From positions 434,001 to 498,000 of the forward strand of contig NC_015125.1 in NCBI RefSeq assembly GCF_000202635.1: a DNA stretch of 64,000 nt, read 5' to 3'. How positions within the stretch are numbered: position 1 is the first letter of the stretch; the number at the start of each line of letters is the position of its first letter. The position numbers and the translations under genes are program-made. The stretch is from Microbacterium testaceum StLB037 (lineage in GTDB: Bacteria > Actinomycetota > Actinomycetes > Actinomycetales > Microbacteriaceae). A model generated the notes under the pieces. The model saw only the letters and a program-made list of their open reading frames with translations, made no database searches and had not been told where the DNA came from. This document shows positions 8,592-20,541 of this stretch, piece by piece.

Positions 8592-11500
8592 TCAGACGAC
8601 GAGGAAACACCCCTCGGCAGAGACGCCGGCGTCCAGACGCGCAACGGATCGCGACCCCAGGCCGCCCATCTGTACCGGGGTCGGACGGTTGGTTGTGGTG
8701 CCATCGCCGAGTTGTCCAGAGTCGTTCTTGCCCCAGCCCCAGACTTGACCATTGCCGAGGGTCGCATATCCGCCACCCCATCGAGCCGCGATCCTCGCGA
8801 CACCGCCGAGGCCGCTTACCGCGGTGGGGCTCAGCACGGTCGACGAACCGCCGTTACCAATCTGCCCGACATCGTTCGCACCCCACCCGGCCACGGTTCC
8901 GTCGGCCTGCAGCACGTGGAAGAAGCCGAATCCGACCGCGAGGGCCTGCACGTTCGCCAAGCCGGCCACCTGAACGGGCGACGCGCTGGTCGCGCCATCT
9001 CCGTTGCCGAGCGTGCCGCTCACAGCGCTGCACGCCCAAACCGTGCCGTCCGTGCGGAGCGCGGCCGTCTGCTGGTGGTCGCCTCCGATGTCGCTCACCG
9101 TTCCCCAGGCCGAGACCGAGACAGGACTGAGGCGCTGGGTGGTGGTGCCATCGCCGAGGCTGCCCCCATCGTTCTTACCCCATGCTTTGACGGAGCCGTC
9201 GCCCATGATGGCGAAGCACGAGCGGTAGGCACCACCGAGGCGCTTCACGCCCGACAACCCCGGAACTTTGAGGGGCGAGGACTGATCGGTTGTCGTCCCG
9301 TTCCCGATCTGCCCGTTCGCGTTCCACCCCCAGGCGTAGACGGTGCCGTCGGCCGTCAGCGCGTAGACGGTAGCGCGTCCTCCGGTGATCTGCACGACGT
9401 TGGCGGGCAGATTCGGAACGCGCCCCCATGTTGCACGTCCCGCGGAACCGTTGGAGCCGTCGTATACGGGAACGGAGGGATCACCGAGCTGGCCATAGTC
9501 GTTGCGGCCGACCGACCACACCGAGCCGTCGGCCAGCAAGGCCACGCCGAAGATGAAGCCGCTGTAAGCCTGGACGACGGGCGATGAGAAAGCGCGCGAG
9601 GTCTGTGTCGCGGTGGTCGCGTTGTTGTTCGTTCCGTCGCCGCCCGCTCCCCAGAGACCGTACCCGGCGTGCATCAGGTTGGATCCGATGACCGTGTAGA
9701 CGTCCGCCGCAGTGCTCGACCCATTCGCCGCGGTCACACTGAGCGAGGCCCCGGGACGGGTCCACACATCGGGGGTGACCGTCGTGACGAGCTGACCGGA
9801 CGAATTCGTCTGTCCCGAGGATGCCGCAAGCACAGCCGCGCCCGAGGCGGTGAGCGACACGGCAGCCCCCTCGACAGGGGTCGAACCCGTGGAGACGGTC
9901 GCCGTCACCTGGTTCGCGGAGCCCGCGATGGCCGGAGAGGCGACATCGACCGCGACCGTGGACTGACCGATGACGAAGAGCGGCGCTTCCATGCGAGCGC
10001 CTGTGGCCAGGGAGGTCACCGGCTTCCCGTTGAGCCCCTGAACCGTGACCGGCGACGCGCTCTGCGTCGACGAGTTGTTACCGAGCTGGCCGGCGTCGTT
10101 ACGCCCCCATGCTTTCGCCGACCCATCGCTCTGCAATGCGTAGCCGTTGTAGTAGCCCCCGGCGAGCTGCACGACGTTCGACAGACCGCTGACCGGCACG
10201 GGTGACCAGCGATCGGTCGTCGAGCCGTCGCCGACCTGACCGTAGGCGTTGCTTCCCCATCCCGAGATGCTGCCGTCGCTCAACTGCGCATAACCGGCGT
10301 CGCCACCGCGAGCGATGTCTTTCACCCCCGTGACACCGCTCAGCTTCACGGGCGTCAGACGGGTGACGGTGGTGCCGTCGCCCACCTGGCCGTTCGCGTT
10401 CGCGCCCCACGCCCAGACCGATCCGTCACTCAGCAGAGCGGAGTGGGTGTCGTTACCACCCGCGAGCTTGACGACACCGGAGATGTTCGAGATGACGACC
10501 GGCGTGGAGCTGTTCGAGGTGGATCCGTTACCGAGTTGACCGCTTGCGTTGCTCGCACCCCACGCCATCGCGGTGTTGTCCTCGAGCACGACCAGGCCGT
10601 TGACCCGACCGGCCACGAGCGAGATGACCTTCTTCGGCAAGCCGATCACCGCAACAGGACTGTAACGGTCGGTGTTCGTTCCATCACCGCACTGGCCCCA
10701 GATGTTCCAGCCCCACGCCATGACGGTCCCATCGGACAGCAACGCATACGAGTTGTTCCAGCCCGCTGCGATCTGCGTGACCCCCGAGAGGCCCGGCACC
10801 TGGCCCCACTGCGTACCCGGAACCGTCGACGTGCTGCGACCGAGCCGCCCATAGTCGTAGAGACCCGCCGTCCAGACCGATCCGTCTCGCAGCAGTGCCA
10901 TCGCGTGGACGGCTCCACTCGATACCTGCACCACCGGGCTCGGGAACGCACGGTTGACCTGGACGGGCATGAGCGGAGTGCTTCCCGAGTTGTCGATACC
11001 CAGGTGTCCCTGCCCGTCGAACCCGGACGCGAGCATGTTGGCACCCAGCACGAGGAACGTGTCCTGCGCCGAGCCGGAGTTCGCGGATGCCGTGACCCGC
11101 ACCACGTCCCCGGGCGTCGTCCAGCGGTCCGGCGTCACCGTCGTCTGGAACACGCCGGAAGAGTCCGTCGCGCCCGATGTCGCCGCGATCGCGGCGTTGT
11201 CCGTCGCCGCGAGTGTGACGGCCGCGCCGGCCACCCCCTTCGACCCGGTCGCGACCTTCGCCTGAACCGCAGATGCAACGCCCGCCGCGACCTGGGTGTC
11301 AGCTACGTCCACCGAGATCGAGGTCGGCGAGCTGAGGGCGAACATGCGGAACGTGACCGGCGAGTACGTCATCAGTCCTGTCACGGCGAGACCGTCGAGA
11401 CCGGTGACCGACACGGGGGTGGCACGGTTCGTCGTCGTCCCGTCGCCGAGCTGGCCGCAGGAGTTGTCACCCCACGCCACCAAAGTCCCGTCGCTCTTCA

Positions 11501-14294
11501 GCGCGTACCCCGAGAGGCCCGAGGACGAGATCAGGGTGACGCCGGACGTGAGACCCGACACGGCGGTCGCGGACGAGCGGGAAACAGACCCGCCGTCCCC
11601 GATGGTGCCGCTCTGGCCGTCGCCCCATGCGTACACCGCACCGTCCGACGTCAGCGCGAGCGCCCCGCCGCCGTAGCTGGAGATCGACGTGACCGTCTTG
11701 CCTGACAGTCCGACGACCTTCGCGGGCGTGGCGGAGCTGTAGTCGGGCACACCCTGGCTCCACCGAGGCGGAACCGGATTCGTTCCCTGACCGAGAGCTC
11801 CGGAGTAGTTGCCGCCCCACGACCACACCGTGCCATCGCTCTTCAGCGCGTAGGTCCCCGCCACCTGGATGACATCGGTCAGCCCCGAGACCTGCACCGG
11901 AGTCGACGCATCCGGCTCGTTGGCGTTCCCCGTTCCCAGGCCCGCGCCGCCTCGACCGAGGGCCCACACGGTCTTGTCCTTCAGGAGGAAGAACGAGTTC
12001 TGGCTGCTGGAGCTGATCTGCGCGACGTTCGACAGCCCGGGGATCGCCACCGGGGTGTACGCGCGCCCTTGAGCCGCGGTGTTCGTGCCGATCTGACCGA
12101 AGTAGTTGTCTCCCCACCCGATCACGGTCCCGTCGGACAGAAGCGCCAGCACCGTCTGATTGCCGGCGGTGATCTGCTTCACATTCTCGACACCCGGAAT
12201 CTGCGTCCACGAGGTGTGGTAGTTCGCGACGCCGTCACCGATCTGGCCGTGGCTGTTCCCGCCGATGGCCCAGACCGACCCGTCGCGGAGCAAGACGAAC
12301 GACGCGTTGTAACTGTAGTAGGAGTCTGCGGAGTACCCCGTTGACACCATCTGAACGATGGGCGAAGGGAAGATGCATGTGAGCTGCGACGGAGTCACCC
12401 GCGAGATGGAGCTGGTTCCCGACTGCGGCCCCGCAGCACCGTTGTCACCGAGCTCGCTGCCGGTATCGCGCCCGAAGCCGAGGGCGTTGGCGCCGAGCAC
12501 GGTGTAGCCGTCGACGCTACTTGCCGCATCCGTCGAGGCACGCACCTGCAGCTGGGCCCCTGGCACCGTCCACCGATCGGGCGTGACGGACGTCTGAAAA
12601 ACACCCGCCGCGTTCGTCTGACCCAAGCTCGCACCGAGCACCGCGTTGCCGGACGAAGTGAGCGAGACCTCCGCGCCGCCCACGCCACTCGAACCCGACG
12701 ACACCGTCGCAGTGACGGTCCCCGCCGTACCGGCCGCCACCTCTGTCTCGACCACGTCGACGTTCAGCGTCAATTCGCCCGAAATGGCGAAGCGCGCACC
12801 GCCATCGGCGCTGCCGCCGATCGCGGTGACGGGAATGCCCGCGGGCAGACTGACCTGCACCGGGACGTTGCTGTTCGAGGCGCTCGAACCGTTGCCGAGT
12901 TGGCCCTTATCATTCGGGCCCCAGGCCCAGACGGTGCCATCCGTCTTCAACGCATAGCCGGAGCCGATGTTCGCCACATCGGACAGGCCCTGAACGGCCA
13001 CGACGCTGGGGGACGCGGCCGATGCACCGTTACCGAGTTCGCCGTTCTCCCCGTCACCCCACGCCACCACCGTCTTGTCCGCGAGAAGGGCATAGCCGGT
13101 CTGACTCGCCGCGGCGATGCTCGCCGCGTTCGAGACACCCACGACCGGTGTCGGGGTGTAGTGGTTGCCGGACTGCGTGGACCCGTCTCCCTGCTGCCCC
13201 TTCCAGTTACCACCCCACGCCATGATCGACCCATCGGTGCGCAGGGCGTATCCGGCGACTGACGTCGCCGCGACCTGGATGACATCGGAAACGCCCGACA
13301 CGGAGACGGCCGTCGGTCGGTTCTGGTTGGTGGTGTCGCCGAGCTGGCCGGCGCCGTTGCGACCCCATCCCATGACAGTGGCATCCTTCAGCAAGGCGAG
13401 ACCGAACCACGATCCGCCCGCGACCCTCGCGGCGTTCGATACGCCCGACACCGTGACGACCGAAGTGGAGAAGGACTTCTGCGCGTAAGTCGTGCCGTCC
13501 CCGAGCGCGGACTCGTAGTTCGACCCCCACGAGCGAACGGTCCCGTCCGGCATCACCGCGTACCCCGTCGAGTAACCGGCGGCGATATCGACGACGTTCG
13601 ACAGTCCCGCGATCTGCTGCGGCGGCCAATACCGGTCGGTCGTCGTGCCGTCCGCGAGCTGGCCATCCCCGTTGCGTCCCACCCCCCATACGTCACCGTT
13701 GCTCAGGCGAAAGAGCGTGAAGTTGTATCCGCCCTGCGCCACCTGCACCACAGGCGACGGGAACACCTGCATCACCTGACGCGGCGTGGGCGCGTTGTCC
13801 GTCGTACCGAGCCCCGCCATTCCGAAGAGGCCCGATCCCCATCCGAGCACGTTCGCACCGAGAACACCGAAAGATTGCGACGCGTTGCTGCTGCCCGACA
13901 CCGCGGCCACCGTCACCGTGCTCCCGGGCGTCGCCCATGGCTTGTTCAGGTTGAAGTTCGTCGTGTACCGGCCCGCACCGTTCGTCACGCCATCAGAAGC
14001 GCTGAAGGTCGCCCCGTCCGGCCCGCTGAACGACACCGGCTGACCCGCCTGCGGTTGCCCCTGCGAGTCCTTCACGGTCACCGTCATCGGGACCGCAGCC
14101 GACGCCGGAACGCCCGACGCCGGACCGGCGATCGTCATGTTCGACACCGACGACCCGTTCGCGAACGCGGGAGTGGCGGATGCCAACGACACCGCCGATA
14201 CGCCCCACGCGGCACCAGCGACAACGGTTCGACGAGAGACGGTCGATGACAACGGGACGGAGGGGGCCGGGCGGCTGGATTCTTGCAGGGTCAC
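8592..14294 (-). CDS. Giant Tat-exported protein: four Ig-like domains alternating with four RCC1 seven-blade propellers
   Basis: The GTG at 14292-14294 follows GAGGAG by 6 bases and starts a 1900-residue protein. An upstream in-frame ATG (14519) has no ribosome site and no signal-like sequence, so it was rejected. Residues 19-45 form a twin-arginine signal (SRRTVVAGAAWG...PAFA). Four modules follow, each an Ig/invasin-like domain (about 48-147, 506-600, 988-1085, 1444-1539) then an RCC1 propeller (148-505, 601-987, 1086-1443, 1540-1900). I count seven W/G-type blades (AWGxNxxGQLGDGTT) in each, 28 in total. No LPxTG or membrane anchor is present. RCC1 propellers bind proteins or surfaces; the ligand here is unknown. 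Probably secreted or surface-associated, perhaps an adhesin. GC appears lower than in neighbouring housekeeping genes. Confidence 0.85.
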   Translation of the reverse strand: MTLQESSRPAPSVPLSSTVSRRTVVAGAAWGVSAVSLASATPAFANGSSVSNMTIAGPASGVPASAAVPMTVTVKDSQGQPQAGQPVSFSGPDGATFSASDGVTNGAGRYTTNFNLNKPWATPGSTVTVAAVSGSSNASQSFGVLGANVLGWGSGLFGMAGLGTTDNAPTPRQVMQVFPSPVVQVAQGGYNFTLFRLSNGDVWGVGRNGDGQLADGTTTDRYWPPQQIAGLSNVVDIAAGYSTGYAVMPDGTVRSWGSNYESALGDGTTYAQKSFSTSVVTVSGVSNAARVAGGSWFGLALLKDATVMGWGRNGAGQLGDTTNQNRPTAVSVSGVSDVIQVAATSVAGYALRTDGSIMAWGGNWKGQQGDGSTQSGNHYTPTPVVGVSNAASIAAASQTGYALLADKTVVAWGDGENGELGNGASAASPSVVAVQGLSDVANIGSGYALKTDGTVWAWGPNDKGQLGNGSSASNSNVPVQVSLPAGIPVTAIGGSADGGARFAISGELTLNVDVVETEVAAGTAGTVTATVSSGSSGVGGAEVSLTSSGNAVLGASLGQTNAAGVFQTSVTPDRWTVPGAQLQVRASTDAASSVDGYTVLGANALGFGRDTGSELGDNGAAGPQSGTSSISRVTPSQLTCIFPSPIVQMVSTGYSADSYYSYNASFVLLRDGSVWAIGGNSHGQIGDGVANYHTSWTQIPGVENVKQITAGNQTVLALLSDGTVIGWGDNYFGQIGTNTAAQGRAYTPVAIPGLSNVAQISSSSQNSFFLLKDKTVWALGRGGAGLGTGNANEPDASTPVQVSGLTDVIQVAGTYALKSDGTVWSWGGNYSGALGQGTNPVPPRWSQGVPDYSSATPAKVVGLSGKTVTSISSYGGGALALTSDGAVYAWGDGQSGTIGDGGSVSRSSATAVSGLTSGVTLISSSGLSGYALKSDGTLVAWGDNSCGQLGDGTTTNRATPVSVTGLDGLAVTGLMTYSPVTFRMFALSSPTSISVDVADTQVAAGVASAVQAKVATGSKGVAGAAVTLAATDNAAIAATSGATDSSGVFQTTVTPDRWTTPGDVVRVTASANSGSAQDTFLVLGANMLASGFDGQGHLGIDNSGSTPLMPVQVNRAFPSPVVQVSSGAVHAMALLRDGSVWTAGLYDYGRLGRSTSTVPGTQWGQVPGLSGVTQIAAGWNNSYALLSDGTVMAWGWNIWGQCGDGTNTDRYSPVAVIGLPKKVISLVAGRVNGLVVLEDNTAMAWGASNASGQLGNGSTSNSSTPVVISNISGVVKLAGGNDTHSALLSDGSVWAWGANANGQVGDGTTVTRLTPVKLSGVTGVKDIARGGDAGYAQLSDGSISGWGSNAYGQVGDGSTTDRWSPVPVSGLSNVVQLAGGYYNGYALQSDGSAKAWGRNDAGQLGNNSSTQSASPVTVQGLNGKPVTSLATGARMEAPLFVIGQSTVAVDVASPAIAGSANQVTATVSTGSTPVEGAAVSLTASGAAVLAASSGQTNSSGQLVTTVTPDVWTRPGASLSVTAANGSSTAADVYTVIGSNLMHAGYGLWGAGGDGTNNNATTATQTSRAFSSPVVQAYSGFIFGVALLADGSVWSVGRNDYGQLGDPSVPVYDGSNGSAGRATWGRVPNLPANVVQITGGRATVYALTADGTVYAWGWNANGQIGNGTTTDQSSPLKVPGLSGVKRLGGAYRSCFAIMGDGSVKAWGKNDGGSLGDGTTTQRLSPVSVSAWGTVSDIGGDHQQTAALRTDGTVWACSAVSGTLGNGDGATSASPVQVAGLANVQALAVGFGFFHVLQADGTVAGWGANDVGQIGNGGSSTVLSPTAVSGLGGVARIAARWGGGYATLGNGQVWGWGKNDSGQLGDGTTTNRPTPVQMGGLGSRSVARLDAGVSAEGCFLVV

Positions 14295-14625: not shown

Positions 14626-16818
14626 TCAGCAGGCCACTTGTACGGCGTACGAGCCTTCGGACCCTTCCCCGGCGCCGGGGTTGCCGGCCAGGCCGTATGC
14701 GGAGGTCACGTTCGAAGTCACCAGCGTGTCCCACAGGTACAGCGCGCCCGCCGCCGTGAGGAAGTACCCCGCGCCGACCGGAAGCGTTGCCGCACCCGCC
14801 GCCGCCGTTCCCGCCGAACCCACGTTCGTGCCATCCGTGGTGAACAGCTTCCCGTCGGAGGTGACGAAGTCCGCCTGGTACGTCCACGCCGCGTTCACCC
14901 ACGCCCGCGCCGCCACGACATTGGATGCCAACTTCGTCGCATCCCGATACAGATCCCCGTTCGCCGCGATGAAATACGACTGCCCCACCGGCTTCGCCGC
15001 CTTGACCACCGACTCCACCGGAACGGACGCGTACTGCGTCGGGGCCGCCGATCCCAGCGCCAGCCAGGACTTGGCATCCGAGGTCACGAACGAACCCTCG
15101 GACCCTTCCCCGGCGCCGGGGTTGCCGGCCAGGCCGTATGCGGAGGTCACGTTCGAAGTCACCAGCGTGTCCCACAGGTACAGCGCGCCCGCCGCCGTGA
15201 GGAAGTACCCCGCGCCGACCGGAAGCGTTGCCGCACCCGCCGCCGCCGTTCCCGCCGAACCCACGTTCGTGCCATCCGTGGTGAACAGCTTCCCGTCGGA
15301 GGTGACGAAGTCCGCCTGGTACGTCCACGCCGCGTTCACCCACGCCCGCGCCGCCACGACATTGGATGCCAACTTCGTCGCATCCCGATACAGATCCCCG
15401 TTCGCCGCGATGAAATACGACTGCCCCACCGGCTTGATCGCCTTGCTGGTCGGTATGGCCGAGTAGGTCTTATCGACAGCACCGTTGAGGATGCGCTTGG
15501 GGACACCGTCCGAACCGACGAAGTCGATCGCCTCGCCCGTCGCCGTGATCCGATATCCCCACGCCGTCACGACACCCGTCGCCAGCACCGTGTTGCCGTA
15601 GTAGAGGTCGCCGTTGGGCGCGAGGAAACCCACACCGCCCACCGCCTTCGACCCCACCGGCACCGCCGGATAACTGTCCACGATCGACCCGAACTGCGCC
15701 TGCTTCGCCCCACCCGACGACAGCACGAAACACACCCCCTTCGCCCAATTCGTCGTGAACCACCCCGCCGCCGACGCCACACCCGACGCGATCTTCGTGT
15801 TCTCGAAGAACAAATCCCCCGACGCCGTCAAGAAATGACGATTCCCCACCGAGGTCCCCGGGTTCGGAACGCTCGTCGGTATGGCCGAGTAGGTCTTATC
15901 GACAGCACCGTTGAGGATGCGCTTGGGGACACCGTCCGAACCGACGAAGTCGATCGCCTCGCCCGTCGCCGTTATCCGATATCCCCACGCCGTCACGACA
16001 CCCGTCGCCAGCACCGTGTTGCCGTAATAGAGGTCACCATTGGGCGCGAGGAAACCCACACCGCCCACCGCCTTCGACCCCACCGGCACCGCCGGATAAC
16101 TGTCCACGATCGACCCGAACTGCGCCTGCTTCGCCCCACCCGACGACAGCACGAAACACACCCCCTTCGCCCAATTCGTCGTGAACCACCCCGCCGCCGA
16201 CGCCACACCCGACGCGATCTTCGTATTCTCGAAGAACAAATCCCCCGACGCCGTCAAGAAATGACGATTCCCCACCGAGACTCCGCCTGCGGCGGACGCG
16301 TAGGTCTTGGACACGGAGGTTCCCAGAGCGAGAGTCGCCTGGGTGTTGAGGTTCACCGTGACCGACGCGCTGGCGGACGTCGACACCGTGGCCGCCACGG
16401 CCGTCAACGTGACCGTGCCGCCCGTCGAGGGAGTGACGATGTCCGGCAGCGCGACGACCCCCGACGCGTTGGTCGTTCCGGTGTACGTCGTCGCTCCGGT
16501 CGGATAGCTGAAGCCGCGAGGAAGGGTGACGGAGATGCTCAGCCCTGCCACCGGACGACCATCGGTGCGGTTCGTCGCCGTAACGGTCGCGCCGGTGATC
16601 GGCTGGCATCCCGTCGCCACGTACTGGACCTTGTCGAACGCGAGGTTCACGGTCTGCGATGCCGCGGCGTAGGCCGGAGCGGCGGTCGCGATCATGATGA
16701 CCGGCAGGCCCCATGCGGCCCCCGCCACGACGGTCCGGCGGCGCACCGCCCAACCTCCCGCCTCGCTTCGATCCGCCTTCCGGTCGATATCCGAGTGGCT
16801 GTCAGCGCTCACGGTCAT
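14626..16818 (-). CDS. Tat-exported protein with Ig-like domain and eight propeller-like repeats in duplicated pairs
   Basis: ATG at 16816-16818 with GAGGAG 8 bases upstream; 730 residues. A twin-arginine signal (RRRTVVAGAAWG...APAYA, about 26-51) nearly repeats that of the RCC1 protein. An Ig-like domain (about 55-170) is followed by eight units of about 70 residues, each around the core GDLYxxxTxLAxxVxxAxG and an aromatic/DG turn. The order is 1-2-1-2-3-4-3-4, because units 1+2 (142 codons) and 3+4 (147 codons) are each tandemly duplicated almost without change. The last unit ends early in YAVQVAC. No anchor is seen. The family is not recognised; beta-propeller is an inference from unit length and spacing. 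The pairing of signal and Ig domain links it to the RCC1 protein. Confidence 0.8.
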   Translation of the reverse strand: MTVSADSHSDIDRKADRSEAGGWAVRRRTVVAGAAWGLPVIMIATAAPAYAAASQTVNLAFDKVQYVATGCQPITGATVTATNRTDGRPVAGLSISVTLPRGFSYPTGATTYTGTTNASGVVALPDIVTPSTGGTVTLTAVAATVSTSASASVTVNLNTQATLALGTSVSKTYASAAGGVSVGNRHFLTASGDLFFENTKIASGVASAAGWFTTNWAKGVCFVLSSGGAKQAQFGSIVDSYPAVPVGSKAVGGVGFLAPNGDLYYGNTVLATGVVTAWGYRITATGEAIDFVGSDGVPKRILNGAVDKTYSAIPTSVPNPGTSVGNRHFLTASGDLFFENTKIASGVASAAGWFTTNWAKGVCFVLSSGGAKQAQFGSIVDSYPAVPVGSKAVGGVGFLAPNGDLYYGNTVLATGVVTAWGYRITATGEAIDFVGSDGVPKRILNGAVDKTYSAIPTSKAIKPVGQSYFIAANGDLYRDATKLASNVVAARAWVNAAWTYQADFVTSDGKLFTTDGTNVGSAGTAAAGAATLPVGAGYFLTAAGALYLWDTLVTSNVTSAYGLAGNPGAGEGSEGSFVTSDAKSWLALGSAAPTQYASVPVESVVKAAKPVGQSYFIAANGDLYRDATKLASNVVAARAWVNAAWTYQADFVTSDGKLFTTDGTNVGSAGTAAAGAATLPVGAGYFLTAAGALYLWDTLVTSNVTSAYGLAGNPGAGEGSEGSYAVQVAC
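14658..14994 (-). repeat. Repeat A, copy 1 (about 337 bp)
   Basis: Appears identical base for base, by reading, to 15099-15435 at an offset of 441 bases (147 codons). It encodes repeat units 3 and 4 of the exported protein. The frame is preserved between copies. Confidence 0.85.
15099..15435 (-). repeat. Repeat A, copy 2 (about 337 bp)
   Basis: Second copy of the 14658-14994 sequence, in the same orientation and frame. The 104 bases between the copies encode the unit linker that ends in TQYASVPVESVVK. Confidence 0.85.
15450..15853 (-). repeat. Repeat B, copy 1 (404 bp)
   Basis: Matches 15876-16279 at an offset of 426 bases (142 codons). I find five single-base differences, all synonymous (for example I ATC/ATA, Y TAC/TAT, N AAC/AAT). 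It encodes repeat units 1 and 2. Confidence 0.85.
15876..16279 (-). repeat. Repeat B, copy 2 (404 bp)
   Basis: Second copy of repeat B. The purely synonymous divergence indicates a recent duplication with selection on, or gene conversion of, the protein sequence. Confidence 0.85.
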
Positions 16819-17145
16819 GACGTCTTCTCCTCGATGGGTCTCAGGGGCTCTCGAGGAGTAGAGCAGCGCGGCCGCGTGAGTGACCAGCCGGATATCCGAT
16901 TCTCGTGGCTCTGTTCCGTTTTCCGCATGCGAGACGTGTGCCGCACCGAGCTTCCGACCCGATCGCGAAGGTCGTGTGGACGAGATGAACGACCGCGTCC
17001 CGTGCCTTCGTTCGAAGGGTGATTTTTCGCCGCACGGTTGCCCTCCTCGGGCCGGAAGGCTCCGATCGACCCGTGGCTCTTGTGAGCATGTTGGACCTCG
17101 ACGGTAAGAGAAGGGATGCCATCCACCGTGCTTGAGGATCAGACG
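16819..17145. other. Divergent control region between the 730-residue repeat protein and the AraC-type regulator
   Basis: No gene is supported in these 327 bases. It must contain the promoters of both divergent genes. A plausible operator for the regulator would lie here. I see the shared element at 16851-16875 but no unambiguous -35/-10 pair. An open reading on the minus strand continuing upstream of 16818 lacks a ribosome site and coding character. Confidence 0.5.
16851..16875 (-). promoter_or_regulatory. Upstream element shared by the two repeat-protein genes (copy 2)
   Basis: TCGAGGAGTAGAGC (16851-16864) overlaps GCAGCGCGGCCGC (16863-16875). Both blocks recur at 14387-14425. Located 33-57 bases upstream of the ATG at 16818. 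Confidence 0.4.
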
Positions 17146-18294
17146 ATGACCGCCCCGCTCGAACCGTCCGCCGTGACGATCGAGCGCAGGGTGCACCGCC
17201 GGGGCTCGCACGCCTACGAGTGGCTGCGGCAGCGCGGCTGGGGGGCCGAGGGCGGGCTGCGCAGCGACGCGATGATCCACGCCGACGAGTTGCGGACCTC
17301 ATCCGTCGTCGCGCGGCGATTACGGACGAGTGCGCTCGGGCTGCAGTCGCTCGCCGCGAACACCAACCACGCCTTCTTCGTGCTCCAGATCGAGGGGAGC
17401 ACGGATGTGTTGTTCCGCGACGGCTCCGTCTCCCGGGTCGGTCCCCTGGGGTTCCTGTCCTGCGCCCTTCGTGACGTCGCGGCGATTCGCTCGCACGGTC
17501 CTGTTCGGCGCATCGAGGTGATCGCCGTCCTTCCGCTCTTCATCTCCACGTCCGCATCCTCGTCCGCTCATGTCCCCCACCCGTCGGCCCCGGGCGGCCT
17601 CGGGACGGGACTCCCCCCCCCCCCCCCCCCCCCGCCAGCGTGGGCACTGGTCACGTCTGTCGTCGACGTCATCCTGGGTTCGACGCTCACGTCGGACAGC
17701 GCCGCTGTCGCGCCCCTCGAGGCATCCCTTCTGCACGCCCTCACCGCACTCATGGTCGAGGCGCGCGGCGGCGTCACCGCGCAGAGGGCCACGCTCCTCT
17801 CGCGCGCGCAGGACATCATCCGGCGTCGCGTGACGCAATCGGACTTCACCGTGGAACAGCTCGCCGCATCGCTGAACGTCTCCAGCCGGTACCTGACGCA
17901 GATCTTCCGCGAAGCCGGCACCTCGCCCGGCCGGGCCATACGCGCCGCCCGCCTGTCCCAGGCGCAGCTCGTCCTTCACGGGGGTGCGTCGTCGGACCCC
18001 GCCGTTGTCGCGCGGGCCGCCGGCTTCTCGTCCGTCCGAGCGATGAAAGAGGCGTTCCGTCGCGCCGGCCAGCCCCTTCCTCTCCCTGCGGCCGTCCGGA
18101 CACCACCCGTCGCCGGACAGATCACGACCACGAGCCCACGAAGGACGAATCGAGAAGCCGCTGATCGCTGTGATTTGGACGGCGTATGCCGTTTGTCTTC
18201 CCGCGTCGACCGACGTCCACCCTCCGCAGCCCGTGGCCGCGCGTCACACGACGAAGCGTCCGTTCCGGATCGACACGTTCTGCGGGGTGGATGA
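17146..18294 (+). CDS. AraC-type transcriptional regulator with a 21-base poly-C tract
   Basis: 382 residues from the ATG at 17146, which has a GAGG site 8 bases upstream; an ATG at 17116 in the same frame is the alternative. The N-terminal half (about 1-150) resembles a ligand/dimerisation domain (FFVLQIEGSTDVLFRDG). An eight-proline stretch near residues 156-163 is encoded by 21 consecutive C. The double helix-turn-helix of the AraC family is at about 215-315 (FTVEQLAASLNVSSRYLTQIFREAGTSPGRAI and DPAVVARAAGFSSVRAMKEAFRRAG). As sequenced the frame is intact. Loss or gain of one C would stop translation near 17833 or 18164 and remove the DNA-binding domain. The 3' end overlaps the convergent M60 gene by 51 bases. 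It likely controls the neighbouring exported proteins. Confidence 0.85.
   Translation: MTAPLEPSAVTIERRVHRRGSHAYEWLRQRGWGAEGGLRSDAMIHADELRTSSVVARRLRTSALGLQSLAANTNHAFFVLQIEGSTDVLFRDGSVSRVGPLGFLSCALRDVAAIRSHGPVRRIEVIAVLPLFISTSASSSAHVPHPSAPGGLGTGLPPPPPPPPAWALVTSVVDVILGSTLTSDSAAVAPLEASLLHALTALMVEARGGVTAQRATLLSRAQDIIRRRVTQSDFTVEQLAASLNVSSRYLTQIFREAGTSPGRAIRAARLSQAQLVLHGGASSDPAVVARAAGFSSVRAMKEAFRRAGQPLPLPAAVRTPPVAGQITTTSPRRTNREAADRCDLDGVCRLSSRVDRRPPSAARGRASHDEASVPDRHVLRGG
17613..17633 (+). repeat. Homopolymer of 21 C inside the regulator gene
   Basis: Counted directly: 21 consecutive C between T at 17612 and G at 17634. The tract sits in the linker between the putative sensor and DNA-binding halves and encodes prolines in the intact frame. 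No other homopolymer close to this length occurs in the window. Read-length error in such tracts is common, so the exact count needs checking. Confidence 0.95.
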
Positions 18295-20541
18295 CAAGGT
18301 GCCCACCCGTTCGCCGTCCTGGTAGATCCGGACGCGCGAAGGCTCCGCGGCGTTCACACGGAGGCGATAACCCGACGACACCGCCACCCCGTTGAGAGCC
18401 GCCACGACCTTGTCGTGCGTGTCGTCGCCGTTCACCGTGACCGAGACGAGGGTCTGCCGTGCGGCGTTCTGCAGGATCACCTGGTAGTACAGCTTCCCCC
18501 GGAAGTAGTAGTCGTGGGGCGCGACGCCGGTCGAGGTGACGACGAGTCGCTTGCCGTCCTTACTCATGCCGATCCAGCCGGCCCGGATGTCGTAGATCCC
18601 GACGAACTCGAGCGCCGAGGTGACCGTGACGGGGACCGTCCGCCAGAGCGCCTCCGGCGTGGCATCCGGAGCCCGAAGAAGGGCGAGGACGCGCCCCTCC
18701 CGCGGGCCGACGTTCGCCGCGGACGATTCCCGACCCGCCACCGAACTCGGCGACCCGTCGAGGGTGGACAAGCCGGAGACGTCCCCGACAGAGGAGGTGG
18801 CTTCTCCCAGATACAGCGTGACGTTCCGCGCGGAGAGCACGCCCACCGGGAGGTTGTATCCCACCGTCCGCTCCCGGTGCGCATCTCGGGAGTCGATGGC
18901 CGTCCAGATCTGGTTCTGCAGCGCAGGGTAGGTCCCGAGTGAAGAAAGAACGGATGCCGCGATCGGAACGCCCCAGGCGGTGAAGAACGGCCCGAGGTCG
19001 CGGTCCGCCACCTGGGAGGCGATCTGCGCGAAGAGGTCCTTCTTCTCTTGATCGGTGGACGGCATCGCCAGACCCCGAATCCGGCGTACGCGGTAGGCCT
19101 GGCTCACAGCGGGATAAAAGCCCTCCCCGAACGACTGACGCAACTGGTCGAAGAGGAACAAGGGGTAGAAGGGGTCTTCGTCGGTCAGTTGCGAGAAGCT
19201 CCGGTCACCGACCGCCTGGGAGAAGTAGCGCGTGATGCGGTCTTTCGCCTCCGGCCACTGATCCAGCCGATGCTCGCCGGTCAGCCGCTGCTGCAGCGCG
19301 AGCGACGAGATGTTGACGGTGACCTCCCCCAGCCCCGACCACGTGTAGGCGGGTGTCTGGAAGGTGTGCCCGACCTCGTGCCACGTGCCCCAGTTGTCGG
19401 GAGTGGTGAGAAGAGCCTCGCTCGCGCCGGTGTCGACCTGGAAGCACAGCCACTGGTTCGTGGCGAACGCCCATCCGGCGCCTGAGTCCGGACCGGAGAA
19501 GTACACCCGGCCCGGATACTTGTGCGCGATGCCGACCGCGGCGTAGGTCAGACCGTAGACGTCGCAGGTGTATGACAGCACGCGGTCCAGGCGGAGGACG
19601 ACATCGGCCGGATCCCACGACACCCCACGCGTCCCCAGATCATCGACCACGCGGCGCTGGACATCGACGACGACACGGTCCCCGACCAGGCTCACCACGG
19701 GTGCCGACGTCCACGCCGCGAGCTGGTCGGCGAACTCTGTCGCAGTCGTCCGGTTCTTCACCCACACGGGATGAGGCGATCCCCCTGACAGCGACACCTC
19801 TGCCGCGGTCTCCGACGAGGTGTTCCTGACGAAGACGATGCCGTCCTGCGCGGCCGCCACGCTCTGCTGCCCTCGGGACAGCGACACCGTCTGGAGGTCC
19901 GTCGTCTGCCCGCTGTTGAAGCCGCGCCACGGCCCACGCGCGCCGATGAACAGCGACAGCGTGGCCGGGGCGTCGGCGTCCACGACCACGTCGATCACCT
20001 CGCCACGGGAGACGTGGCGCCCCGTGGGCTGGAGGTCGCTGTGCGCGAATCCGCGGTTCTCGAGGGTCATCACCTCGTCCTGGCTGCCGTGCGACAGGGC
20101 GATCACACGGGTCGAGGCGCCGTCCGCCGCGTGCATGACGACCGCGACGGGACGCACCTCGAAGGTCGCCGACGCGACACTCGCGGCGGAGCTGCCCGTC
20201 AGCGTGCCTATGCCGGAGGCGGCGTCGCTGCGGATCCGCAGCGACGTCTCATACACCCCCGCGCCATCGGTCACCCCCGAGGGCTGGTCGATCACTCCCC
20301 GGGACGGATCGTCCAGCGTGAGGGTGACGGGGTCACCGGGACGCGGCCGCCCGGCATCATCGCTCCTGGTCACCCGCACGGTGGTCGCCTCGTCGGGGTA
20401 CAGCCGAGAACGTTCCGTCACGACGGTGAGCGTCCCGGTCGGGCTGGCGACCGAGGAGGGCACCAGGACGGCAGATCCCATGACCGGCAGAGCCCACGCC
20501 CCGGCCGCAAGAACGCTCCGTCGCGTGGCATCCAGAGTCAT
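18244..20541 (-). CDS. Tat-exported M60 (enhancin-like) metallopeptidase with Ig-like and mucin-binding type domains
   Basis: ATG at 20539-20541 with GGAGGA 9 bases upstream; 765 residues. A twin-arginine signal (TRRSVLAAGAWALPV, residues 6-32) matches those of the two repeat proteins. An Ig-like domain follows (about 36-125). The gluzincin site is HEVGH at 388-392 with a downstream glutamate at 406 in GLGEVTVNI, the HExxHx(n)E signature of the M60 family. Residues about 640-740 (FVGIYDIRAGWIGMSKDGKRL through YRLRVNAAEPSRVRIYQDG) resemble the mucin/carbohydrate-binding domain that accompanies M60 enzymes. M60 enzymes cleave O-glycosylated mucin-like proteins; the substrate here is unknown. 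Probably secreted. An in-frame start at 20628 lacks a ribosome site. Confidence 0.88.
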   Translation of the reverse strand: MTLDATRRSVLAAGAWALPVMGSAVLVPSSVASPTGTLTVVTERSRLYPDEATTVRVTRSDDAGRPRPGDPVTLTLDDPSRGVIDQPSGVTDGAGVYETSLRIRSDAASGIGTLTGSSAASVASATFEVRPVAVVMHAADGASTRVIALSHGSQDEVMTLENRGFAHSDLQPTGRHVSRGEVIDVVVDADAPATLSLFIGARGPWRGFNSGQTTDLQTVSLSRGQQSVAAAQDGIVFVRNTSSETAAEVSLSGGSPHPVWVKNRTTATEFADQLAAWTSAPVVSLVGDRVVVDVQRRVVDDLGTRGVSWDPADVVLRLDRVLSYTCDVYGLTYAAVGIAHKYPGRVYFSGPDSGAGWAFATNQWLCFQVDTGASEALLTTPDNWGTWHEVGHTFQTPAYTWSGLGEVTVNISSLALQQRLTGEHRLDQWPEAKDRITRYFSQAVGDRSFSQLTDEDPFYPLFLFDQLRQSFGEGFYPAVSQAYRVRRIRGLAMPSTDQEKKDLFAQIASQVADRDLGPFFTAWGVPIAASVLSSLGTYPALQNQIWTAIDSRDAHRERTVGYNLPVGVLSARNVTLYLGEATSSVGDVSGLSTLDGSPSSVAGRESSAANVGPREGRVLALLRAPDATPEALWRTVPVTVTSALEFVGIYDIRAGWIGMSKDGKRLVVTSTGVAPHDYYFRGKLYYQVILQNAARQTLVSVTVNGDDTHDKVVAALNGVAVSSGYRLRVNAAEPSRVRIYQDGERVGTLSSTPQNVSIRNGRFVV

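Follow-up and report, generated by a model that had tools for sequence, protein, structure and literature searches.

Interdomain C/G tract in an AraC-type regulator gene of Microbacterium testaceum as a probable slipped-strand switch beside a divergent exported repeat protein

Results

A 21-C tract separates the two halves of an AraC-type regulator gene

The window, i.e., the whole 64-kb stretch of Microbacterium testaceum StLB037 DNA analyzed here, contains an AraC-type regulator gene that is divergent from a gene for a Tat-type exported protein and convergent with a gene for an exported M60-like peptidase; an exported RCC1-repeat/Big_1 protein is encoded beyond the divergent gene (Table 1). 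Alignment made the ATG at 17146 a likelier regulator start than the upstream in-frame ATG at 17116 (ORF 17116–18294). Pfam searches of the window regulator returned only HTH_18 (E 7.9e-11) and HTH_AraC (E 1.3e-7), both on the C-terminal side, and no two-component sensor kinase. No Pfam cupin match was obtained in the sensor domain of the window regulator alone; Cupin_6 was detected in 6 of 27 scanned family members (best E 5.1e-6), and a profile of the regulator family gave weak matches to solved cupin-type chains (best E 0.001). The single-sequence structure model of the regulator had a mean pLDDT of 48.7, and only its C-terminal HTH part included blocks exceeding 70; that of the divergent exported protein had a mean pLDDT of 39.0. 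The regulator runs about 70 residues beyond the end of its orthologue in G267 (18082–18294), and this 3′ extension reaches into the 3′ end of the M60 gene, which is convergent with it. The repeats inside the divergent exported gene (14646–16279; 426 and 441 bp) are multiples of three and could alter the length of this gene by recombination.

Table 1. Features of the window and the two other long C runs of its genome (G000, contig C1)
Feature	Position	Strand	Remarks
Exported RCC1-repeat/Big_1 protein	8592..14276	-	Start approximate; Pfam
Divergent Tat-type exported protein, 730 aa	14626..16818	-	Likely target; no Pfam family found
Direct repeat, spacing 441 bp, 99%	14646..15386	-	Inside exported gene
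Tandem repeat 426 bp x 2, 98%	15445..16279	-	Inside exported gene
GGGTGA candidate half-site	17017..17022	+	Within divergent promoter region 16819-17145
AraC-type regulator CDS	17146..18294	+	In frame with 21 C; ORF and alignment
N-terminal sensor domain of regulator family	17173..17544	+	Cupin-like in several members
C21 homopolymer tract	17613..17633	+	Between sensor domain and HTH domain
HTH_18 DNA-binding domain	17860..18066	+	Pfam; lost in two of three frames
Exported M60-like peptidase, Tat-type, putative mucin-binding module	18244..20541	-	Pfam; convergent with regulator
C15	G000:C1:46878-46892		At or near 3′ end of carboxypeptidase-like gene (by eye); ORF reads through
C14	G000:C1:283101-283114		Between gluA- and gluB-like genes (by eye)

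The tract consists of exactly 21 C and is the sole C or G run longer than 6 in the 64-kb window; elsewhere in the window, we found no C/G run longer than 6 and no A/T run longer than 5. According to a first-order Markov estimate, 1.3e-7 runs of at least 21 C are expected per window. A preliminary description of this DNA, made from the sequence, had placed a 21-C tract between the sensor and DNA-binding halves of a full-length regulator, and examination of the sequence and its ORFs confirmed that the tract is real and in frame. The frame closures that it had given, at 17833 with one C fewer and at 18164 with one C more, were reproduced by frame computation, as was the accompanying loss of the HTH domain, which is gone in two of the three frames; the addition of three C retains the frame.

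A search of the genus with the window protein yielded one close orthologue, in G267 (51% identity, E 8.2e-88), the next match having an E value of 1.3e-19; a search of named genomes for relatives of the window regulator found none. Since the G267 orthologue aligns on both sides of the tract, the in-frame reading corresponds to the real protein, in agreement with the proposal that the regulator is full length at 21 C. The G267 gene itself has no tract; its divergent exported gene is retained, and two genes located further downstream in the window are also present there, as judged by eye. The M60-like gene is missing at the corresponding place in G267; in G280 (L175), a gene whose product has a similar N-terminus to the M60-like peptidase (by eye) lies about 3.7 kb from a family member.

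Long C/G runs are common in the genus and mostly lie outside gene bodies

The window genome (3.98 Mb, single contig) has three runs of 12 or more, namely 15, 14, and 21 C. C/G runs of at least 12 were present in 168 of 295 genus genomes and runs of at least 18 in 102 of 295, so within the genus such runs cannot be called rare. The earlier statement that such tracts are uncommon in actinobacteria thus did not hold here, given also that variable C/G-type runs are reported, in the accessible parts of the sources, for Propionibacterium acnes (PMC4746626), Gardnerella (PMC11287997), and Mycobacterium tuberculosis (PMC11898584). The background rate was 0.27 per Mb (73 runs of at least 12 in 267 Mb), calculated from 75 single-contig genomes sorted by hand, with 18 genomes of unsorted contig number left out. 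Many draft genomes of the genus show clusters of paired G and C runs, some at contig ends, which may be hairpin-like arrays or products of assembly.

We screened 28 distinct tract loci by codon composition (26 from other genomes and two from the window genome, chosen among the fetched loci, with contig-end loci omitted). None of them was clearly inside a gene body, and two were unclear: L072, with masked bases, and the C15 run of the window genome in L018, located near the C-terminal end of a carboxypeptidase-like ORF. A long ORF covered the tract at L061, L065, L068, L084, L106, and L113, where the likely gene start is downstream (by eye), and the screen detected no ORF at 8 of the 28 loci (L059, L060, L074, L082, L083, L085, L117, and L121). 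What looks unusual about the window tract is therefore its location inside a gene body, not the run itself. The notion that long tracts mark regulators or surface genes across the genus was not borne out by this screen.

Interdomain tracts recur in one regulator family of the genus

When 366 genus genomes were searched with a profile of the N-terminal domain (A2), 39 matches were listed, distributed over 29 of them. We counted as the family the 29 matches with E values up to 8.3e-15, which come from 21 genomes, and all 29 were read; ten weaker profile rows were omitted, one of which (G296) was fetched and had no tract. For two of the 29 members the contig ended within the linker, so that 27 were complete. 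Six of these 27 carry a tract of 14–42 C/G between the sensor and DNA-binding domains, namely (on the sense strand) the window regulator with C21, G103b with G14, G247a with G14, G247b with G22, G197a with G19, and G356b with G42, while the background rate given above predicts about 0.008 interdomain tracts of at least 12 in 27 members. The G197 homologue was also seen among the weaker matches to the window protein, with its halves in different frames and 19 G between them. A seventh run, C11 in G170, lies just before the matched N-terminal domain. In G247, two regulator/exported gene pairs adjoin each other (L153:3684-9542), with G tracts of 14 and 22, both OFF in the assembly.

A wider search covered 377 genomes of the taxonomic family, same-genus ones included, and provided 53 members from 12 genomes of other genera, all of which were read. 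No member among these 53 had a tract of at least 11 near the domain, and one had G10. The difference between the genus (6/27) and the sister genera (0/53) gave a Fisher p of 0.001, or 0.003 with the window excluded. Even when the recurrence is counted as three origins only, its Poisson probability is about 1e-7. The sister genera have up to 11 family members per genome among the matches listed (G583), and 5 of their 53 members (L180–L235) had no HTH match despite having no tract.

Position, base, and phylogeny point to at least three origins

The window C tract lies immediately before a conserved 'AW.L.S.VN.' motif, the G tracts of G103b, G247a, G247b, and G197a immediately after it, and G42 of G356b further along, adjoining the HTH domain. 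The tree was built from 31 rows (28 genus family members including G296, and three sister-genus members; the two cut members were omitted). In this tree, G103b, G247a, G247b, and G197a form one clade with a support of 100/100, so these four G-tract genes were counted as one origin. The window regulator pairs with the tractless G267 orthologue (100/99). G356b falls outside the G clade and joins the window regulator and G267 at 92/83, below the firm-support mark of the tool; because of this weak placement, it is the position and base of the tracts on which a count of three mainly depends. Taking position, base, and tree as the basis, the simplest reading is that the tracts would have arisen at least three separate times.

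Another clade has 10 members, 7 of them with a divergent exported gene, and no tract, so the switch is optional. In a further G-clade member, G166, the contig stops some 10 bases short of the tract site, and in G053 a contig break divides the gene at the position corresponding to the tract of the window. These breaks fit assemblies broken by a tract but prove nothing.

Mixed frame states and conserved coding downstream of the tract

With each half read in its own frame, the window regulator and G103b are ON, and G247a, G247b, G197a, and G356b are OFF; two of six in frame is what random lengths would give, and these calls use assembled lengths, which may err at long runs. The orthologues G247b and G103b share 83% nucleotide identity over 966 bases, including 45 identical bases that precede the tract. 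The tract, at 22 (OFF) versus 14 (ON), is the sole coding length difference between them. For this pair, dN was 0.090 and dS 0.563 in the sensor half (dN/dS 0.16), and dN was 0.060 and dS 0.598 in the HTH half; the HTH half, which is downstream of the tract, is thus under purifying selection (dN/dS 0.10). The OFF/OFF pair G247a/G197a gave dN/dS values of 0.17 in the sensor half and 0.26 in the HTH half, and none of the four OFF copies has a stop inside the halves used for the tree. Judging from these coding sequences, the OFF copies do not appear to be in decay.

The divergent exported gene is the likely target

A motif screen combined with inspection by eye indicated that, for at least 19 of the 29 family members, the divergent neighbor encodes a protein with a signal of the twin-arginine type. 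Among the six members with a tract, five have such a divergent exported gene; none was found for G356b, the member with 42 G. Tandem arrays with periods of 198–450 bp, all multiples of three, were present at 10 of 18 family loci scanned, examples being 198 bp x 3.9 (99%) at G197a, and 402 bp x 2 (99%) and 240 bp x 5.9 (100%) in G247.

The hexamer GGGTGA, which we first spotted by eye, occurs in 28 copies in 15 of 17 promoter regions, compared with a mean of 2.1 in shuffled sequences, and was never reversed; G053 and G044 were omitted from this test, so that 17 of the 19 divergent pairs entered it, and the shuffle control overstates the excess because the promoter regions share descent. GGGTGA ranks first among all 6-mers by the number of these 17 regions in which it is found. 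Two copies are spaced 33–34 bases apart in five regions of the G-tract clade and 55 bases apart in five tractless pairs.

In the window, GGGTGA is present as a single copy in the 327-base region between the regulator and exported genes, once in the 351 bases upstream of the M60 gene, and once per orientation in the 336 bases upstream of the RCC1-repeat gene. These counts single out none of the three genes, and a direct link of the switch to the M60 or RCC1-repeat gene is unsupported. The preliminary description had noted that the adjacent genes encode exported proteins, the usual targets of such switches. The likely target of the regulator is the divergent exported gene; what connects the other two genes to the regulator is proximity alone.

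Mismatch repair and a model of the switch

No MutS match was found in the window genome, while a control search found MutS in 11 of 14 genomes. NucS is present in the window genome, and the accessible part of one source (PMC8228993) states that NucS leaves short indels uncorrected. Because MutS is absent and NucS ignores indels, a slipped-strand change of the run would escape mismatch repair.

On these sequence data, we consider it likely that the tract is a slipped-strand phase (contingency) switch acting through a local regulator. The C/G run would slip by one or a few bases during replication. A tract length divisible by three would then give the full AraC-type regulator (ON), and the other two frames would lose the HTH domain (OFF). 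The regulator probably binds the GGGTGA repeats in the divergent promoter region and would set transcription of the neighboring Tat-exported repeat protein, so that a clone would come to contain both cells that control this surface or secreted protein and cells that do not. The sequences themselves show the tract and its frames, the recurrence in the family, the mixed frame states, the coding constraint, and the promoter motif; that the run slips in vivo, that the regulator binds DNA, which gene it acts on, and in which direction are inferred.

Discussion

The designation of the tract as a probable phase switch in the preliminary description is supported by the family tracts with at least three apparent origins, the mixed frames, the orthologue pair of unequal tract length, and the purifying selection downstream of the tract. 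One may suppose instead that slippage simply lengthened the C run because the proline-rich linker is unconstrained, and that any switching is accidental. The linker is indeed among the least conserved parts of the protein, the nearest orthologue (G267) is without a tract, and long C/G runs abound in the genus, for the most part outside gene bodies. Neutral growth, however, sits poorly with the recurrence in one family, improbable even at three origins, and with the lack of tracts in all 53 sister-genus members; moreover, the G clade has kept the tract in the same place despite 17% nucleotide divergence, its frames are mixed, and the coding sequence downstream is conserved. We therefore regard neutral expansion as unlikely. 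A different possibility is that the tract tunes the length of the linker in steps of three, which would alter the linker with the frame retained, or that ribosome or RNA polymerase slippage yields both protein forms; CCC runs are prone to +1 slippage of tRNA-Pro. Five of the six tracts are G on the sense strand and four are not in frame, so the tracts cannot share the function of a linker rheostat. We rate tuning or recoding as quite improbable.

The assembled sequences themselves could also mislead, the true run being much shorter or of another length. Long homopolymers are error-prone, the 42 G of G356b look extreme, and the draft assemblies of G166 and G053 break in the linker of the regulator gene. 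Yet long tracts occur in five separate assemblies, including the single-contig G000 and G247, and an error in exact length changes the ON/OFF call, not the presence of a tract; an artefact accordingly seems very improbable to us. A search of named genomes with the G103b protein found a single record, that of Microbacterium testaceum NS283 (L236); since this assembly is identical with G103, it gives no independent check of the tract. As for gene decay, in which the frame-shifted copies would be pseudogenes in the course of being lost, four of the six tract-bearing copies are out of frame, but the low dN/dS of the HTH half in both the OFF/ON and the OFF/OFF pair and the stop-free halves of the four OFF copies make this account hardly credible. 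We thus retain the switch acting through a local regulator as the preferred reading.

Among known systems, Spy1336/R28-Spy1337 of Streptococcus pyogenes is the closest in design, and bvgS of Bordetella pertussis is the closest in switch type. In the former, as the accessible part of the report describes (PMC7098570), an AraC-family regulator is divergent from a surface protein with identical tandem repeats, and a variable-length homopolymer at the pair changes the transcript levels of both genes. The window has the same kind of arrangement, in that its AraC-type gene and an exported gene containing tandem repeats are divergent; it lacks the intergenic homopolymer, and its tract lies in coding sequence. 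According to the same text, the streptococcal tract is T, intergenic, and acts on the transcript level, whereas the Microbacterium tract is C/G, coding, and would act via the frame; the two systems belong to different phyla and are likened by gene arrangement alone. In bvgS, a coding C run in a key regulator (C6/C7) is such that one extra base truncates the protein, which is alike; as far as the available portion of that report goes (PMC1891110), bvgS encodes a sensor kinase and its run is 6–7, whereas the Microbacterium regulators are one-component AraC-type proteins beside a likely target with runs of 14–42.

Actinobacterial parallels differ in other respects. Homopolymer indels at espR of M. 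tuberculosis alter the level of a regulator and the secretion dependent on it, a similarity to our locus, but in the excerpted account (PMC11898584) the tract is upstream, in the 5′ UTR, and acts on protein abundance, with no interdomain frameshift, unlike that in the window. In P. acnes and Gardnerella, variable C/G tracts likewise occur between or inside genes, and those of Gardnerella are often near surface-protein genes (PMC11287997); the accessible parts of these two reports (PMC4746626, PMC11287997), unlike the Microbacterium data, describe no recurrent tract in one regulator family. No description of the present switch was found in the literature searched, whose coverage left most subscription journals outside. 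The available text of a review (PMC11868660) withholds the term phase variation where reversibility lacks demonstration.

We lean, by a modest degree, toward a broader view in which the locus represents a recurrent two-layer module, comprising an AraC-type regulator that gains a C/G linker switch and a divergent exported protein that can be resized via in-frame repeats; it would be an independent actinobacterial counterpart of the R28-Spy1337 pair in which the regulator itself contains the switch. If this is true, the two adjoining pairs of G247 would give four combined states.

Most known cases of homopolymer phase variation come from host-adapted bacteria, and most concern surface genes themselves or methylases. 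In the present genus of actinobacteria, switches seem to have been gained at least three times within a single family of one-component regulators. This raises the questions of why switching affects the regulator instead of the surface gene, whether such loci change at high rates in actinobacteria that lack MutS, and what the exported repeat proteins encounter, be it phages, hosts, or neighbors.
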